Assembly (NCBI RefSeq): GCF_003173355.1
Contig: NZ_QGMY01000007.1
Coordinates: 124,001-188,000, forward strand
Direction: 5' to 3'
DNA: 64,000 bases
Source: Methanospirillum lacunae
GTDB taxonomy: Archaea > Halobacteriota > Methanomicrobia > Methanomicrobiales > Methanospirillaceae
Each line of letters begins with the position of its first letter. Positions within the stretch are counted from its first letter, which is position 1. The notes beneath the pieces are model-generated. The model saw only the letters and a list, made by a program, of their open reading frames with translations. It did no database searches and was not told where the DNA came from. Of this stretch, positions 7,659-31,621 are shown one piece after another. The translations under genes were made by a program, and so were the position numbers.

Positions 7659-9275
7659 TCAGTCCCACATAGGCTGGTTGGACCTTACGGAACGATCCGG
7701 GAGGGAGACACAAAACCGGGTACCCATGCCTAGACCGTCGCTCTTTACCGTTATATGGCCGTTATTGAGAAGAACAAGTTTCCTGACTACTGAGAGGCCG
7801 AGCCCGTGAGACAGAAGGTCACTCCGTGATGCATCAGCCTTGTAAAAATCGTCAAAGATCCGGGATGAATCCTCATGTGTCAGACCGATTCCCGTATCTG
7901 ATACACAAAACCAGGTATATTCGCGATCTTTTCCACCATGAAGGGTAATAGTTCCTCCAGGTTCAGTAAATTGCAATGCATTATTGATCAATTTCTCAAG
8001 AATGAGATGGAGATGAATGTACTTGATCCGAATCATCATCCCGGGCTTGATGTCATTCCTGATAGAAAGCCCTTTAGAACTTATGACCGGAAGTGAAGCT
8101 TCGATAATCTCATCTGCCATACTACCAAGATCACAAGGCCTCGTATCCCGCTGACTAAATGCGGATTTCTCAACTCCCAGGTTTTCCGTCATCAGGATCT
8201 CTTCCACCAGGGACCTTATCATCATCGTACTCTCGCAGAGAACTCTCAGAGTATTCTTCTTCTCGCCATCGGTCTCGTTATGTTGAAGATATGGAAGCAG
8301 GGCTACAAGCGGGGTGAGAGGAGTGCGAAGGTCGTGTCCAATATTTACGATCAGATCACGCTGTTTTTTCATCAGATCCTCAAGTTGTTGTGTCCGCTCC
8401 TGAACCCGCTGATCTAGAGATGCATTCAGATGCTCAAGCCTGCGGGAGTAATCATTTACCGCCTCGTGTGCCTGGCTCAGGGCAGTATTATCTTCAAATA
8501 TACTCACATAACAAGGAGGATCCCCAGGTTCTATAGGGATCCGGTCTGTGTAATAGCGTATCGTTTTTGAATTCCGAACTCTAACTTCTCCCGATCTGGC
8601 AATTCCTGAAATTCCATCTTCACCCAAGGGGAACATAGGAAGGTCATCACCCTCGTATTTGAGCAGGGTTTTAATCTGTCTGGAAATTAAATCGTGAGTC
8701 AACAGTGACTCCGATGTCTCAGTATCAAAGTCCCAGATTGAGAAAAATGCATTATTTGCATACATCACGGACCCTGTTATGGGTTCATACAGATACACCC
8801 CAAACGGAATCGCCCCCCCCACAGAAAATAAGAGCGAGGAGAGCCGTTTTCTGTCGCGTTCATTCCGCTGCTGTTTAAGCAGGTTTTCAATCTGGATTGG
8901 AAGGAGATTTAAATACTCACGTTCAGGATCTTTTACCAGGTAATCCTTTGCCCCAAGCTTTAGTGCAGTGACTGCATTGTTCAAATCTGCCTGCCCGGTC
9001 ACAACAATTACCGGGGTCCGGGTATCAAATGTGGGGAGAAGATCAAGGATGGTCCCGTCAGATAGGAAAAAGTCGCAGATTACCAGATCATACATCTGGT
9101 TTCGGGACCGAGCCTCGGCTAGGGACGACGAGAGATCTATCTGATATGGTAAGGACTTTTTCTGAGCCACCCGGGTTAGTGCTTGCTGGTCAATCAGGTT
9201 GTCTTCAATATAGTGAATCCTGATTACCGGCTTATCTGCCGTAAATATCGGCATCATGCAACAACCCCTATCCAT
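7659..9275 (-). CDS. REC-PAS-histidine kinase
   Basis: Soluble sensor kinase with an N-terminal receiver (Asp68 in VICDFFLSDG; signature Lys in YLVKDPEREYL), a PAS-like segment about residues 150-270, a short coiled coil, a HisKA domain with His314 in NIGHDLRTPL, and a HATPase domain (NNALQFTEPGG, DTGIGL, HGLGLSVVR). The receiver resembles that of the neighbouring hybrid kinase, including the VKDP-x-REYL stretch, so the two look like duplicates. The start ATG at 9275 overlaps the stop of the upstream membrane kinase by 8 bases; ATGATG at 9257/9254 is an alternative. The overlap implies coupled translation, and the receiver is a plausible phosphate acceptor from the upstream kinase. Confidence 0.88.
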   Translation of the reverse strand: MDRGCCMMPIFTADKPVIRIHYIEDNLIDQQALTRVAQKKSLPYQIDLSSSLAEARSRNQMYDLVICDFFLSDGTILDLLPTFDTRTPVIVVTGQADLNNAVTALKLGAKDYLVKDPEREYLNLLPIQIENLLKQQRNERDRKRLSSLLFSVGGAIPFGVYLYEPITGSVMYANNAFFSIWDFDTETSESLLTHDLISRQIKTLLKYEGDDLPMFPLGEDGISGIARSGEVRVRNSKTIRYYTDRIPIEPGDPPCYVSIFEDNTALSQAHEAVNDYSRRLEHLNASLDQRVQERTQQLEDLMKKQRDLIVNIGHDLRTPLTPLVALLPYLQHNETDGEKKNTLRVLCESTMMIRSLVEEILMTENLGVEKSAFSQRDTRPCDLGSMADEIIEASLPVISSKGLSIRNDIKPGMMIRIKYIHLHLILEKLINNALQFTEPGGTITLHGGKDREYTWFCVSDTGIGLTHEDSSRIFDDFYKADASRSDLLSHGLGLSVVRKLVLLNNGHITVKSDGLGMGTRFCVSLPDRSVRSNQPMWD

Positions 9276-12200
9276 TTTTTAATGTAAAACAGAATGTAGC
9301 CCCACCACCAGGAACTGATTTAACCCATATTGATCCGCCTGACGTTTCAACAATCCGTTTGACAATGGAGAGACCGATACCAGAACTCTTCTTAGCATTC
9401 CCGGAAGGGTATGATCTGAAGATCTCAAAGATAGACTCATGAAGAGCAGGATTTATACCAGGGCCGTTGTCTGTGATCTCAAATGTCCAGAAACCAGGAC
9501 TCTTGCCTGTGTTATCAGAGTCCGGTTCAACAGGAGTGCCATCCTTATCAGAAGAAGGATACGCACTGATTTGTATCTCTCCATCTTCCCGGTTCAGGCA
9601 GGAGAGGGAATTGCTGATGAGGTTCTGAAAAACCTGCTGAATCTTTGTCCGCTCGGCTGTTAGGACAGGCAGACCTGTTTCAATTACTATGTTCACAGAT
9701 GGAGGAGGAGAGAGAATCTGCAGGGTTTCGTTTATAATATCCCTGATATTAACCGGGACACGGTCTTCTCTGACTATGCCAGCCTGTGAGTAGGCAAGAA
9801 TTCCATCGATCAATTGATACATCCGTTGGATCTGGTCAGTTATCATGCCAACATATCGCTGGCCATCCGGTCCTATCTGTTCAAAATAATCCTCGCCTAT
9901 CCAGGATGCCAGTGAATAAATACCTCTGAGGGGATCTTTGAGATCATGGGCAACGATATGGGCAAAATCCTGGAGCCCCTTGTTTGAAGCTGAAAGTTCT
10001 TTCAGGAGATCCTGTACCTTCTGTTCAGCCCGTATCCGTTCTGTGATATCAGCGATAGAAAAGAGGACGCAGGGATCGGTATCTATCTCGATAAGAGCAC
10101 CATAAAGTGAGCCATGCCGTATCTCCCCGCTTTTAGTCTTTAGTGGGAGTTCAAGCCCGCGAATTGAACCTTCGGTAAGGATGGTTTCTTTGATATGCAG
10201 GAACTGATCAGGATCGATGATCCCGTACCCTGACCAGTGAGTTGATTTCAGGATCTCTTTTGCACTGTAACCGGTGGTCTCAAAAAATGTTTCGTTGGCA
10301 TCAATCAGACGTTCTTCACGTAAATTCCAAATAGCGTGGAGAACCTGGCTTGACCTGAACGCTGTTGCAAACTTGTGCTCAGAACGCTTGAGATGAGATA
10401 TATCTTTACAGATACAGAACACTGCCTGACTTTCATTCCATATACCTGATAGATATCTAATCTCTACCGGGATCTCCTTTCCTTCAATTGTCAGAAGAAA
10501 TGCAGTCCGCTCCTGCGCAGACATTCTGTTTTCGTCAGGCGACAGGGGGGTGTTCATCCATCGTGAGGTGAAGAGACCTGAAAGGCGCATCCCTCTCATA
10601 TCTGAAGCCCTGATACCGGTCTCCAACTGTGCAAAGAGATTTGCCGTTATAATCCTACCATCAGAATCCAGAATAAAGACAAAATCATTCAGATGATCAA
10701 AAAACTGCTGAAAGTTCTCATCTCTCTTCTTTTGTTCCTCATCTGAATCGATCCGTACCAGTGCAGCCATAAGCATGTTGGTGGCAATGCGGAGAGCATC
10801 AAGTTCTGATGCATGCCATGAACGATCACGGACCCGATCTACAAGTACCAGCACCCCCCGTGTTTCTCTTCTTGCAATAAATGGAATCAGGGCGATGGAC
10901 CTGATGCCCTGACATGTCAGGAACTCCTGCTCTTTTCGAAATTTTTCTGCAGGACCTGCCACCGGACTCTGCATCTCAAAAATGACGGATTTGAGAGGAC
11001 TTTCAAGGATCTCATCCCAGGTCAGTTGATCTTCAGAGAAGTCTGCGGTTTCTTGCACCCATACATAATCATGGGCCAAAACCGGGTCTCCTGAAGAATC
11101 CATATGCCAGGCAAAATAATGAGCTTCGCTGATCCCCATCTTTTTGACGATCTTATGAAGGATCTCGATGATCGAGGAGTCGCTTAGATCACCGATTACC
11201 TGCGCAGCTGAATATCCGATGGCTTCAAGAAGAAGATCTCGCCGATTCAATGCAGCTTTTGTTCTTCTCCGGTTCTCTTCACCGCTCAGTGTATGAACAA
11301 TCAGATCCAGCATGATCTGGTTTACCTCACTCTCATGTTCGTTGCCTGATAGCAGGAGAGAGAGATCGCCAACCTGTTTCCCGGAAACACTAATGGCTCT
11401 TGAAACAACTATCCGTGCTCCCGGATATACTGTTTGTACGAGATTTCTCCCTTCTTCAGGTAAATCATCAATTGAGAGTACATATTCCCCACCAAAAGAA
11501 AATGAGGAACTCGGATGATCCGGCTGTGATAAGAAAAATTCGGCCAGCCATTTATGGACATTAGTATCCCTTTCAGGCCAGGAACTGACGAGTGAGTACC
11601 CCTCATCTTCAAACCGGGTGTAGAAGGTAGCTTCGGTCTTAAGCATCCCTGAAACACCTTTCGTTACCAGAGGGATATTCTGGTCACTTTCAAGACCGGC
11701 ATACAGGTACTGGTCGAGGACCTGGTGAAATTTGTCAAGAATTTCACGACGCTCTTTCAATGCTGCCAGTTCTACGTTTTGTGCAATGATTTGGGATCGG
11801 ACCTGATCATGCCTGCGGAAGAGAAGAAAGATAATGAGAATCCCGAGAGGTATTGCTATGAGACAGAAAATTACGGAATGGAGAAAGGAAGTTGATACAT
11901 ATATTCTTCCATGCGGTAACAGGTGCTTATCTCCAGATAAGGTAATCTGGATCTCTGAAGATGAGAAGGGATCAGTATACGATAATGTTCCTGACTTCCA
12001 TGTCTCGTTCTGCTCCCCTAGGGTTGCAACAGGTTCTATTGAGAGATTAAAGGCAGGGACTGAAGTCAAATGAGGTATTGAGGATACCACACTTACTTTC
12101 GTGTCATTCAGCATGAGATCGTGAGCTTTTTTGTTTATTTTTGGCTGAATCGGAGAACCAAAAGTGAGTACTCCTGCTGGAGAAAGATTATCATATGAGT

Positions 12201-12759
12201 TGCTGATCCCTGCCTGTGAAACCACCAAAAAACTGCCATTTGTGCATACGAGTGATGTCCGGGTATTTCCAGGATTATCTTCAGATGATGTCAACATACC
12301 AGGAAGAAAAACCGGAGTTATTTCAGCATATGTATCAGGATCATACTGTTTAAGATACAGAGTCTTTCCATCTGCATCAGTAATAGAGACATAAGTGATT
12401 CCAAGGTTTTTCAACGATCTGACCTGCAGATTCTCCTGGAGATAGCGGTCATCCGGCTCCCTTATAAAATCATAAGTTTCATCCCACTTTGCATAATCAA
12501 GGGTTATTCTCTCAAATGTTTCGGCATATGATGTTATCACGCTGCCAACACCCATGAGAGCAAATCGGGTGCTTGCATCTTCTGCTTCAGCATACGAGTT
12601 CAGTATCATCTCCGAGTTATGGAGAATCAGAAGAATGGCTAAAATCAATATAAGAAACAGGATTGGCAGAACCAGTTTCCTTCTTATCAGGAACGGTCCG
12701 GTCCGGTCACCTGGTTTGTAATCAGGAAAAAGAAATGAAATCAGTGAATGTATCAACAA
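9268..12759 (-). CDS. Membrane histidine kinase: CHASE4-GAF-GAF-PAS-PAS-HisKA-HATPase
   Basis: Large sensor kinase. Two membrane helices (residues ~28-48 and ~290-312) flank an extracytoplasmic CHASE4-like domain (ERITLDYAKWDETYDF motif region). Two GAF-like segments (~335-490 and ~500-665) and two PAS domains (~670-790, ~795-920) precede the HisKA helix with His938 in IVAHDLKDPLRG and a HATPase (DNGPGI, SSGIGLSIVKR). The only start codons that keep the first membrane helix are TTG at 12759 and 12756: an in-frame TGA lies just upstream and the next ATG falls after the helix. A TTG start is therefore likely. The stop overlaps the next gene, a receiver-bearing kinase, suggesting a cascade. The ligand is unknown. 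Confidence 0.85.
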   Translation of the reverse strand: MLIHSLISFLFPDYKPGDRTGPFLIRRKLVLPILFLILILAILLILHNSEMILNSYAEAEDASTRFALMGVGSVITSYAETFERITLDYAKWDETYDFIREPDDRYLQENLQVRSLKNLGITYVSITDADGKTLYLKQYDPDTYAEITPVFLPGMLTSSEDNPGNTRTSLVCTNGSFLVVSQAGISNSYDNLSPAGVLTFGSPIQPKINKKAHDLMLNDTKVSVVSSIPHLTSVPAFNLSIEPVATLGEQNETWKSGTLSYTDPFSSSEIQITLSGDKHLLPHGRIYVSTSFLHSVIFCLIAIPLGILIIFLLFRRHDQVRSQIIAQNVELAALKERREILDKFHQVLDQYLYAGLESDQNIPLVTKGVSGMLKTEATFYTRFEDEGYSLVSSWPERDTNVHKWLAEFFLSQPDHPSSSFSFGGEYVLSIDDLPEEGRNLVQTVYPGARIVVSRAISVSGKQVGDLSLLLSGNEHESEVNQIMLDLIVHTLSGEENRRRTKAALNRRDLLLEAIGYSAAQVIGDLSDSSIIEILHKIVKKMGISEAHYFAWHMDSSGDPVLAHDYVWVQETADFSEDQLTWDEILESPLKSVIFEMQSPVAGPAEKFRKEQEFLTCQGIRSIALIPFIARRETRGVLVLVDRVRDRSWHASELDALRIATNMLMAALVRIDSDEEQKKRDENFQQFFDHLNDFVFILDSDGRIITANLFAQLETGIRASDMRGMRLSGLFTSRWMNTPLSPDENRMSAQERTAFLLTIEGKEIPVEIRYLSGIWNESQAVFCICKDISHLKRSEHKFATAFRSSQVLHAIWNLREERLIDANETFFETTGYSAKEILKSTHWSGYGIIDPDQFLHIKETILTEGSIRGLELPLKTKSGEIRHGSLYGALIEIDTDPCVLFSIADITERIRAEQKVQDLLKELSASNKGLQDFAHIVAHDLKDPLRGIYSLASWIGEDYFEQIGPDGQRYVGMITDQIQRMYQLIDGILAYSQAGIVREDRVPVNIRDIINETLQILSPPPSVNIVIETGLPVLTAERTKIQQVFQNLISNSLSCLNREDGEIQISAYPSSDKDGTPVEPDSDNTGKSPGFWTFEITDNGPGINPALHESIFEIFRSYPSGNAKKSSGIGLSIVKRIVETSGGSIWVKSVPGGGATFCFTLKNG

Positions 12760-12808
12760 AAACCCTGGAAGTGATTTGTAGTCGATATCAATTAACTTAT
12801 CTCCGGTT

Positions 12809-13255
12809 TTATCTCATCGAACTGCTCTTGTTACCATATTGTGACTCATAAGACCTCAGGGCAGGCATGGTACCCTGGACCTTTTCCGGGTCAACAATGA
12901 TATCACCGGGATTGATATGGAGATAGGCAAAAGTCTCATTTATCAGAGGAATATCTAAAAACCCTTCGCTTTTTCCGGAAGACAGGTCAGTGATGACCCT
13001 GGTCAGGGATTCATCAACCATTGAAAAAATAGTCCCTCCATCTTCCCCATATGAGAGATCAATACCCACATCTTTCAGAAAACCAAGGAGTGTCTGGATT
13101 AACCCGTTGTCATCTCCTATAATTCCACTAGTACCTGACACATTTCTTCCCTGATCTTGTGCATACACAGCACTACCTGCAACCACCAGGGAGAGAAGTC
13201 CGCCTAAAACAAGGAACCGGATGAAAACGGAAAGATGTCTCTTCATATTTATCAC
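12809..13255 (-). CDS. Exported hypothetical protein, 148 aa
   Basis: Unrecognised family. A clear signal peptide (basic KRH, then a hydrophobic stretch ending AGSAVYAQ) is followed by about 115 polar residues with no Cys. The mature part holds two helical segments (GLIQTLLGFLKDVGIDL and SMVDESLTRVITDL). ATG 13246 (MKRHLS) is an equally good start. It sits 49 bases before the membrane kinase on the same strand and could supply an extracytoplasmic partner, but that is inference from position only. Expected to be secreted or surface associated. Confidence 0.6.
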   Translation of the reverse strand: MINMKRHLSVFIRFLVLGGLLSLVVAGSAVYAQDQGRNVSGTSGIIGDDNGLIQTLLGFLKDVGIDLSYGEDGGTIFSMVDESLTRVITDLSSGKSEGFLDIPLINETFAYLHINPGDIIVDPEKVQGTMPALRSYESQYGNKSSSMR

Positions 13256-28925: not shown

Positions 28926-29687
28926 TCAGCCAACAAGAACGATACTGATATTATCAGGACCTCCACCATCAAGACATGCCTTCAGCAGGGCATCAGTGGC
29001 TGACTGAAGATCACTTCCCATACCGAGGGTGAAGATGATGTCATCCCTGACAACCTCCCAGACTCCGTCAGTGCAGATCAGAAATCGTCCGGTGCCGGAC
29101 CATGGAACCAGGTTTACTAATACCGTAGGAGCAGCCCTGCTGGGATCACCTGATATTGAAGCTGTTATAATGTTACGGTACTGGTGTGTATACATCTGGT
29201 CGCTTGTTATGGCCCCGCTGTCACAAAGTTCCTGAACAAGCGAGTGATCATGGGAGAGTCGTTCTGCCTTTCCATTATCGATGAGATACACCCGGGAGTC
29301 CCCACAGTTGAAGATGAGTGCATGATCAGAAAAGAGGACTAACCCTGCAACTGTTGTCCCAAAACCGGTATATGAGGGATCAGCACGGACAATCCTGTCA
29401 AGAGTCTCTTTTGCCCCTTGGATCATCGCCATGACTGCTGTAGGGGACTTAGGAACCTGAACCAGTGAGCAGTACTCCAGAACAGTACGGCTGGCTACCT
29501 CACCGTGAACTGCGCCACCTATTCCATCTGCGACCATGAAGAGAGCAGGCAGGTCAGGAATATCTGCAATCTCAGCCTGGTCCATGCTGGCAGTATTGAT
29601 CACCTTTCCCGGAACCAGGATGCTGTCCTCGTTACCTGACCGGAGGTATCCACGATGGGTGAGGTAAGAACAGCGTGGTGACATCAT
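28926..29687 (-). CDS. PP2C-type serine/threonine phosphatase
   Basis: Soluble PPM phosphatase of about 253 residues. Motifs in order: SYLTHRGYLRSGNED (N-terminal motif with metal Asp), FMVADGIGGAVHGEVAS, GFGTTVAGLV, NCGDSRVYLI, LSHDHSLVQEL, FLICTDGVWE and GGPDNISIVLV. These include the metal-binding aspartates of an active enzyme. The frame reaches TTG 29738 but ATGATG at 29687/29684 starts just before the catalytic domain and is preferred. No Ser/Thr kinase or FHA gene is in the window, so its partner is elsewhere. It is the second phosphatase of the PPM superfamily within 2 kb. Confidence 0.85.
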   Translation of the reverse strand: MMSPRCSYLTHRGYLRSGNEDSILVPGKVINTASMDQAEIADIPDLPALFMVADGIGGAVHGEVASRTVLEYCSLVQVPKSPTAVMAMIQGAKETLDRIVRADPSYTGFGTTVAGLVLFSDHALIFNCGDSRVYLIDNGKAERLSHDHSLVQELCDSGAITSDQMYTHQYRNIITASISGDPSRAAPTVLVNLVPWSGTGRFLICTDGVWEVVRDDIIFTLGMGSDLQSATDALLKACLDGGGPDNISIVLVG

Positions 29688-29808
29688 GAGATCTACTGTA
29701 CCTAATACCCGGATCCAGAAGAGTATTCTGATCCACAAAATACACCTTTACCAAGATTTCAGAGATGACCGTGCATCTTTAAGGTTCACCGATAAACCGT
29801 AACTAAAA

Positions 29809-29813
29809 GGAGG
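29809..29813 (+). promoter_or_regulatory. Strong Shine-Dalgarno that decides the AtpC start
   Basis: AAGGAGG (29807-29813) ends 6 bases before CTG 29820. No ATG, GTG or TTG follows at usable distance. The nearest ordinary start in frame (TTG 29871) is 57 bases away and would cut off conserved N-terminal residues. The site therefore argues for initiation at CTG. Confidence 0.6.
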
Positions 29814-29819
29814 AGAAGA

Positions 29820-30935
29820 CTGCACCATTTTCCGATCACCCCAACTGCATATATCTATATCTGTACCAGATTGACCGTCAGGAAGGCACGACTCATTAAA
29901 AAAGACCAGTATATGCGGCTTTTAAACATGGATCTCAACCAGATTAGCAGATTTATTGGTGAGACCGAATACCAGAACGAGGTGAACGAACTTGCCGGTA
30001 GTCTCTCTGGAATCGCTTTGATTGAAGGAGCCCTTACCAGAAACCTTGCTGAAACTTACCAGAGTGTGGTTGCAATAACTCCCGGAACCCTTCATGAACT
30101 CACCGTACGGTACCTTGCCAGATGGGATATCTGGAACGTGATGCTTGTGCTCCGGAGCAGACAGTTCAATATCCCTGCCGACCAGATACGGCAGGTACTG
30201 ATCCCAGCAGGAGGGATATCTCCTGGACAGATAGAGGCGCTGCTCTCACAGCGTACAATAAATGATATTATCGAGGGGCTTGAGAAGTGGGAACTGTATC
30301 CAATTCTAAAAGACGGTTTTGCCACAGGATATCGGAAAGGGCTGTTTGCAGAGGTTGAAAACTCCCTCTACATGTCATTTTACAAGAATTATTACAAGGA
30401 TGCAAAATCTGGTATCAGAGGTGGTGATGCTATCCTTCCGTACATGCGGTTTGAGATAGACATTGTCAATATCAGAAACCTCTTCAGGCTCAGGGCCGGA
30501 AGCAGGGTGACCGACATCAAACCATACATAATACCGGGAGGAAACCTGAGGCCTGAATATTTCCAGCAGATGTATCCTGTAGAAGATAAACAGCAATTTG
30601 TTGCAGGAATGCAACAGGCGAAGATCCTGCCGATTCTGATGGAGGCACTGCAGGATGTGAGATGCAATGAGTCAGTCTGCGAGGCTGATGCTGCAGATCT
30701 CATCTGGAAACTCTGGGCTGAACGAAAGACACCCCTCTTTGCGATGATGATGGCAGTCACGAGACTTCGTCTTCATCGTCTCGAACAGATTTCAAGGAGA
30801 TACCCTTTCTCGGTTTTGCCTATTCTTTCGTACCTTGAACACAAGAGGCATGAGGTTGCGAACCTCCGGGCTATTGCAAGGGGAAAACAGTTCGGCCTTG
30901 ATGCTGACCATATCAGGCGATACTTGGTTATGTAG
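29820..30935 (+). CDS. atpC: A/V-type ATP synthase subunit C
   Basis: Central-stalk socket subunit that joins the rotor ring to subunits D and F. The sequence has the family start ...AYIYICTRLTVRKARLIKK, then RFIGETEYQNEV, RNLAETYQ and repeated three-helix bundles (RFEIDIVNIRNLFRLRAG, PILSYLEHKRHEVANLRAIARG). Total length from CTG 29820 is 371 residues, close to the usual ~350-360. The conserved YxYxxxR segment lies upstream of TTG 29871, so I place the start at CTG 29820, which has a perfectly spaced AGGAGG. Subunit D follows 8 bases downstream. Subunits H, I, K, E, F, A and B are missing from this locus. Confidence 0.85.
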   Translation: MHHFPITPTAYIYICTRLTVRKARLIKKDQYMRLLNMDLNQISRFIGETEYQNEVNELAGSLSGIALIEGALTRNLAETYQSVVAITPGTLHELTVRYLARWDIWNVMLVLRSRQFNIPADQIRQVLIPAGGISPGQIEALLSQRTINDIIEGLEKWELYPILKDGFATGYRKGLFAEVENSLYMSFYKNYYKDAKSGIRGGDAILPYMRFEIDIVNIRNLFRLRAGSRVTDIKPYIIPGGNLRPEYFQQMYPVEDKQQFVAGMQQAKILPILMEALQDVRCNESVCEADAADLIWKLWAERKTPLFAMMMAVTRLRLHRLEQISRRYPFSVLPILSYLEHKRHEVANLRAIARGKQFGLDADHIRRYLVM

Positions 30936-30943
30936 AGGGAGTC

Positions 30944-31621
30944 ATGGCCTATCAGACTGATGTGAAACCAACCCGTGCCGGCCTTCTTGCACTTAAAAAC
31001 AGACTCAGGATGGCTCGGAAGGCATACAATATCTTGAGTATGAAATTAGACGGGTTGATCCTTGAGGTGACACGTCTTGCTCCTCAGGTAAAAAAGGAGC
31101 ACGAACTCTTGATCAAACGCTACAACCGGACCCGGTTTCTGATTGCCGCAGCGTATATGATAGAAGGAACAGTAGGTGTGACCGTCGCTGCCTACTCGGT
31201 TGAGGTAAAGCCAGAAATCGACCTCTCACAGCGCAATGTCTTTGGAGTCAAAGTTCCGGTGATCACCGGAAAAAACGTTAAGACAGACGTGATTGAACGA
31301 GGGTACGGACTGCTTGGAACAACCCTTGTCATTGACGATCTCGCTGACTCATACGAAGAACTCCTCGATGCCATTATCGTATACGCAGGAAATGAAGCAA
31401 CACTTAAGCGTCTTTTGGCAGAGATTGAGCGGATCAGCAGAAGAGTCAAGGCACTTGAACACATGGTTATCCCAACTCTTGAGGAGACTGAACTGTATAT
31501 CTCCCGGATGCGTGATGAGATGGAACGTGAGGATACGAGCAGGCTCTTTCATGTAAAAAGAAGAAAAGAGGAAGCAGCTGAAAAGACTGATCAGGAGAGG
31601 AAAAACAAAGCCCTGGAATGA
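30944..31621 (+). CDS. atpD: A/V-type ATP synthase subunit D
   Basis: Central rotor-shaft subunit, 225 residues, built of two long antiparallel helices. The N-terminal VKPTRAGLLALKNRL and the region LLKxKRD-like KKEHELLIKRYN, plus the C-terminal helix RVKALEHMVIPTLEETELYI with a charged tail (RKEEAAEKTDQERK), are family hallmarks. The charged tail is long. A GAGGGAG site precedes ATG 30944. In most methanogens D comes after F, A and B; here it directly follows C, so this is either a split operon or a second partial set. It is convergent with the marker 8 gene, 7 bases apart. Confidence 0.9.
   Translation: MAYQTDVKPTRAGLLALKNRLRMARKAYNILSMKLDGLILEVTRLAPQVKKEHELLIKRYNRTRFLIAAAYMIEGTVGVTVAAYSVEVKPEIDLSQRNVFGVKVPVITGKNVKTDVIERGYGLLGTTLVIDDLADSYEELLDAIIVYAGNEATLKRLLAEIERISRRVKALEHMVIPTLEETELYISRMRDEMEREDTSRLFHVKRRKEEAAEKTDQERKNKALE

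Follow-up and report, generated by a model that had tools for sequence, protein, structure and literature searches.

Initiation at CUG is very rare in prokaryotes, and a lone example can readily be put down to error. In the close-relative triplets of Belinky et al. 2017, 2 of 61,358 ancestral AUG starts were reported to have changed to CUG, and a stronger Shine-Dalgarno (SD) sequence to accompany the weaker GUG and UUG starts (PMC5622118). Cryo-EM of E. coli initiation complexes containing a variant initiator tRNA revealed a CUG codon that pairs normally at positions 2 and 3 and weakly at position 1, and the initiator tRNA was described as inefficient on CUG in this bacterial system (PMC11497404), a point that counts against the reading put forward below. 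Leaderless mRNAs of haloarchaea are reported as strictly AUG-dependent while leadered ones tolerate GUG and UUG (PMC3986360, PMC4574771), with a weak use of GUG on very short leaders (PMC4574771). The SD motifs at the 5'-UTRs of Haloferax volcanii are reported as unused and methanogens are cited as predicted to carry leaders (PMC3986360), and therefore the haloarchaeal rule can serve here only as a guide. A described archaeal CUG start was not found in a literature search, which is no proof of its absence.

The locus described here resembles the prokaryotic CUG starts of Belinky et al. 2017 in that an ancestral AUG appears to have been replaced by CUG, but it differs from those triplets in that the CUG persists in four archaeal species near synonymous saturation (PMC5622118). 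By analogy with the bacterial CUG complexes, an initiator tRNA with a first-position mismatch, and thus the same physical mechanism, is likely; those complexes were formed in vitro with E. coli ribosomes and a variant tRNA, whereas a natural archaeal gene and archaeal initiation factors would be at work here (PMC11497404). The presence of CTG in four species beside relatives with ATG constitutes a natural test of the acceptance of CUG by the archaeal ribosome, and the same case tests whether a strong SD compensates for CUG. Gene callers restricted to ATG, GTG and TTG would truncate or mis-start such a gene. The locus also brings to attention an unexplained extra pair of C and D subunits in the Methanomicrobiales.

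A second pair of C and D subunit genes

The window analysed (64,000 nucleotides, positions 124001-188000 of contig C7) belongs to a Methanospirillum genome of 3.74 Mb that is 99.94% complete (G000). The features around the gene start are as follows.

28926..29738, minus strand: PP2C-type phosphatase, divergent neighbour (Pfam PF13672/PF00481); the true start is probably inside the frame
29771..29781, plus strand: GTGCATCTTTA, promoter-like (BRE/TATA-like) element common to the four CTG species, found by alignment of upstream regions; putative promoter role
29793..29795, plus strand: in-frame stop TAA that shuts the subunit C frame upstream of the CTG
29807..29813, plus strand: Shine-Dalgarno sequence AAGGAGG; AGGAGG and a 6-nt spacer are invariant in four species and the 16S rRNA 3' end of the same genome matches
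29820..29822, plus strand: CTG, very probable start codon (alignment of orthologues, codon comparison, tree)
29820..30935, plus strand: A-type ATP synthase subunit C, second copy, 371 codons plus stop (Pfam PF01992, PDB matches, structure model)
29871..29873, plus strand: TTG, codon 18, first canonical start of the frame, rejected as start
30944..31621, plus strand: A-type ATP synthase subunit D, second copy (Pfam PF01813), partner of the CTG gene

The CTG-led protein matches PF01992 along residues 14-368 (1.3e-70; 238.9 bits against a cut-off of 29), and its predicted structure has a mean pLDDT of 89.8, with values of ~95 in residues 11-20. Among PDB structures this model best matches V/A-ATPase subunits C and d. 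With a profile score above the cut-off, a full-length family match and the family fold, the protein resembles the PF01992 subunits C and V-ATPase subunits d (Thermus 1r5z, 1v9m, 6ly9). Unlike the usual members of the family, it starts with CTG and its gene does not belong to the ATP synthase operon, subunit D being the only other subunit gene beside it.

The search of ATP synthase families in this genome covered A/B, C, D, F and I. The A/B family occurs at two places only, both on contig C3, where F (once) and I are also placed, while subunits C and D each occur twice; therefore the C-D pair of the window is an extra pair beside the normal ATP synthase operon. The separate subunit C (C3:68651-69679) has an ATG start. 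The first-pass annotation had taken the CTG gene for that of an essential enzyme, a view that is not supported, given that the A/B, F and I genes were found solely in the company of this ATG-start copy and that an orthologue of the CTG gene was not seen in two of 12 Methanospirillum genomes.

Subunit D lies downstream of C in each of the 17 loci compared (10 from Methanospirillum, 7 from other genera). In 8 of the 10 Methanospirillum loci the pair has a divergent PP2C phosphatase upstream, even where this is only ~35% identical. The phosphatase was not seen at the G005 locus, and the G010 locus is spanned by 630 bases only. A regulatory link between the phosphatase and the C-D pair is possible, and our guess is that the ATP synthase can use the pair as an alternative central stalk. 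Three full Aha clusters are described in the JF1 genome, with no mention of an extra C-D pair found in the accessible part of that paper (PMC4704411). A literature search for an orphan C-D pair returned no paper.

The codon aligned to position 29820

Direct reading of the sequence bears out the initial observation that AAGGAGG ends 6 bases before an in-frame CTG at 29820, the spacer being AGAAGA (29814-29819), and that ATG, GTG and TTG are absent ahead of TTG 29871, since none is present in frame back to the stop at 29793, including the 8 codons between this TAA and the CTG. Between GTGCATCTTTA (29771-29781) and the CTG the same three codons are absent from every frame of this sequence.

Orthologues were searched in 12 Methanospirillum genomes (the present one and 11 others) and found in 10; in G009 (99% complete) and G011 (75% complete) only other subunit C copies were found. 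The codon aligned to 29820 is CTG in four of the ten orthologues (the present genome, G007, G004 and G002) and ATG in another four (G003, G008, G001 and G010), as it is in G020, from another genus. The alignment with relatives that had been proposed as a check of the CTG thus returned ATG in 4 of the 6 other genus orthologues. The G005 orthologue begins at an ATG six codons upstream of the aligned position and that of G006 has TTG at the aligned codon. Two further loci with start sequences identical to those of G004 and G002 were not counted again.

The proteins of G007, G004 and G002 are 87%, 85% and 81% identical to that of the window, and the four CTG proteins are mutually 77-87% identical, and ATG stands at the aligned codon in relatives at 56-57% identity. 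A maximum-likelihood tree was built from 22 proteins, that of G006 being represented by residues 1-200; in it the four CTG genes group together (support 96/95) as a single clade nested in the orthologue group (support 100/99), with the ATG rows outside the CTG clade. The simplest history is a single ATG-to-CTG change, the TTG of G006 having arisen on its own. At the G006 locus (L075, G006:C103) the start is apparently TTG, with GGAGG 7 nt upstream; an ATG two codons above has GGAGG just 1 nt before it, too close to the SD, and the subunit C frame is broken near residue 200.

The retention of the triplet was compared with that of the 33 other invariant leucine columns of the four CTG genes. None of these is CTG in all four genes, and the same leucine codon is shared by all four at 2 columns; a third-base G common to all four is seen at 1 column and a first-base C at 25. 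Because C is so commonly kept at leucines, a retained C alone is weak evidence and it is the third-base G that is informative; the lack of any all-CTG column therefore indicates that the start triplet is kept as a start and not as a leucine. Protein-level conservation follows the same boundary. Codons 2-17 contain 7 columns with synonymous-only changes against 3 with nonsynonymous ones, and codons 11-17 contain 4 against 0, whereas at codons -8 to -5 the amino acids vary freely and codons -4 and -3 correspond to the SD. Judged from these patterns, coding constraint begins at the CTG.

The in-frame CTG has no canonical start back to the stop in the present genome and in G007, a ribosome binding site stands at the right spacing in all four CTG species, and the codon is aligned with the ATG starts of orthologues and conserved as a triplet. 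We therefore hold, with high confidence for a claim drawn from comparison of sequences, that CTG 29820 is the true start of a paralogous subunit C gene, inherited in a four-species clade from an ancestor with an ATG start. The non-AUG initiation first suggested for this codon is strongly supported by the conserved triplet, the SD, its spacing and the ATG of relatives. As far as these data indicate, the CTG start is ordinary in mechanism, yet rare and unusually well conserved.

Alternative readings of the gene start

Initiation farther downstream, at TTG 29871 or at the ATG codons 32 and 37 that follow it in the subunit C frame, with the upstream codons untranslated, is very improbable. TTG 29871 is the earliest canonical start in the frame and both ATG codons are common to the four CTG species, but the TTG gives way to CTT in two of the others and to CTG in the third, and no SD was found in a scan before either the TTG, in line with the earlier remark that it lacks a ribosome site, or the two ATG codons. 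In an alignment of 14 subunits C, Y13, T16 and R17 do not vary and Y11 and C15 hardly do, which substantiates the YxYxxxR-like segment expected near the N-terminus; all five residues would be lost with a start at the TTG. Such a start would also cut away half of predicted helix 1 (residues 9-23 of the model) and the first residues aligned to the Thermus subunit, whose alignment begins at residue 11. The synonymous-only changes of codons 11-17 are contrary to an untranslated leader.

Initiation upstream of the CTG, by an in-frame ATG in some species, by another codon or through a frameshift, is just as hard to sustain. In-frame ATG codons are present 13 codons before the CTG in G004 and 10 codons before it in G002, and in G007 an in-frame ATT is placed 24 codons upstream. 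However, the two ATG codons, which may still serve as starts in G004 and G002, lie inside or just past the promoter-like element, among unconserved codons, with no counterpart in the present genome or in G007. The frame of the present gene is stopped 9 codons above the CTG, the leaders of this genome and G007 are devoid of ATG, GTG and TTG, and the codons above the CTG, SD excepted, are not conserved as protein.

A still smaller chance is given to a CTG-led gene that is decaying and barely translated. The gene is an extra copy, none is seen in G009 and G011, and the frame of the G006 relative is broken; against this, the four CTG genes are intact frames of 371 codons, codons 18-371 show 176 columns with synonymous-only changes against 111 with nonsynonymous ones, the level of protein identity (77-87%) is held despite near-saturated 4-fold sites, and a D partner adjoins each gene. 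The G006 genome is fragmented and 64% complete, and its frame break may be an assembly fault.

That the CTG is an error of sequencing or assembly, or an ATG mutated only recently, as had also been proposed, can practically be discarded: a single base separates the CTG from the ATG of the 56-57% identical relatives, but four different genomes, including a single-contig one, carry the CTG, and between pairs their genes share only 36.5-50% of third bases at 4-fold sites, near saturation. What stands of that proposal is an old ATG-to-CTG change, the likely origin of the CTG start.

Leader region and mode of initiation

The upstream regions of the four CTG species share the element GTGCATCTWTA between -51 and -37, and the distance from AGGAGG to the CTG is exactly 6 nt in all of them, despite 2-nt indels farther upstream. 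The 3' end of the 16S rRNA of the present genome is GGATCACCTCCT, in which the anti-SD is present. If GTGCATCTWTA is a promoter, transcription would start ~25 nt downstream, at about -20 to -13, and leave a leader of ~15-20 nt. No Rfam match to an RNA element was found at the gene start, and the predicted fold is no better than that of shuffled sequences (z 0.57).

The SD was scored in 17 loci (10 of Methanospirillum and 7 others, G060 left out). GGAGG is placed 6-7 nt upstream of the start in 5/5 non-ATG orthologues and in 0/12 of the ATG-start loci, where any 4-base core (AGGA, GGAG or GAGG) is found in 1/12; the loci are related and this contrast amounts to about two events, not 17. In G060, with an ATG start, GGAG ends 3 nt upstream and GAGGAG ~17 nt upstream, a possible exception to the pattern. 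The subunit C copies of the operon often have both an SD and an ATG, and therefore the contrast is limited to the extra copies. Several of the ATG-start genes (G003, G008, G050 and G055) are preceded by TATA-like sites at ~-37 to -22, which suggests that their leaders would be very short or absent.

With CTG 29820 as the initiation codon, the gene would have moved from leaderless or near-leaderless AUG initiation to an SD-led mode, which may have eased the requirement for AUG so that CUG was tolerated. The strong AGGAGG 6 nt upstream would set the initiator tRNA-Met on CUG, pairing at positions 2 and 3 only, probably with low efficiency. The protein would begin with methionine, the expected N-terminus being (M)HHFPITPTAYIYICTR. 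One tentative and rather unlikely extension of this mechanism is that the CTG, far from being an inert relic, is a deliberately weak, SD-dependent start under selection to restrain or regulate C2-D2 as an alternative central-stalk pair of the ATP synthase; were the weak start true, the leaderless-to-SD switch would trace a path by which a CUG start can evolve.

A widespread use of CTG starts in the genus was considered and, on a sample of 400 kb from G007 (roughly one tenth of the genome), rejected. An SD-like motif stands there before 33 of 1500 CTG codons, compared with 1608 of 55,223 codons other than ATG, GTG and TTG, in a scan blunt enough that SDs are weakly recovered even for ATG (63/1413). 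Of the 97 open frames in the window, 44 have a partner at 55% identity or more in the G007 stretch compared, and homology extends more than 5 codons above the first canonical start in both species in 14 of these 44, the CTG gene included. Judged by coordinates, the other CTG-like starts comprise seven shadows inside longer genes, two overlaps with the 3' end of the preceding gene and one extension of 6 codons; the three remaining candidates have a plausible ATG or TTG on inspection, that at 9268-12813 being less settled. This last frame (minus strand) has no canonical start before the TTG codons at 19-20, and weak homology to G007 extends above them. Near base 4593 of L097 in G007 (284593 of the joined 400 kb), CTG and then GTG follow AAGGAGG ahead of IPSTNIGVVGHVDH, the product of which presumably resembles aIF2 gamma; at this site GTG is the likelier start.
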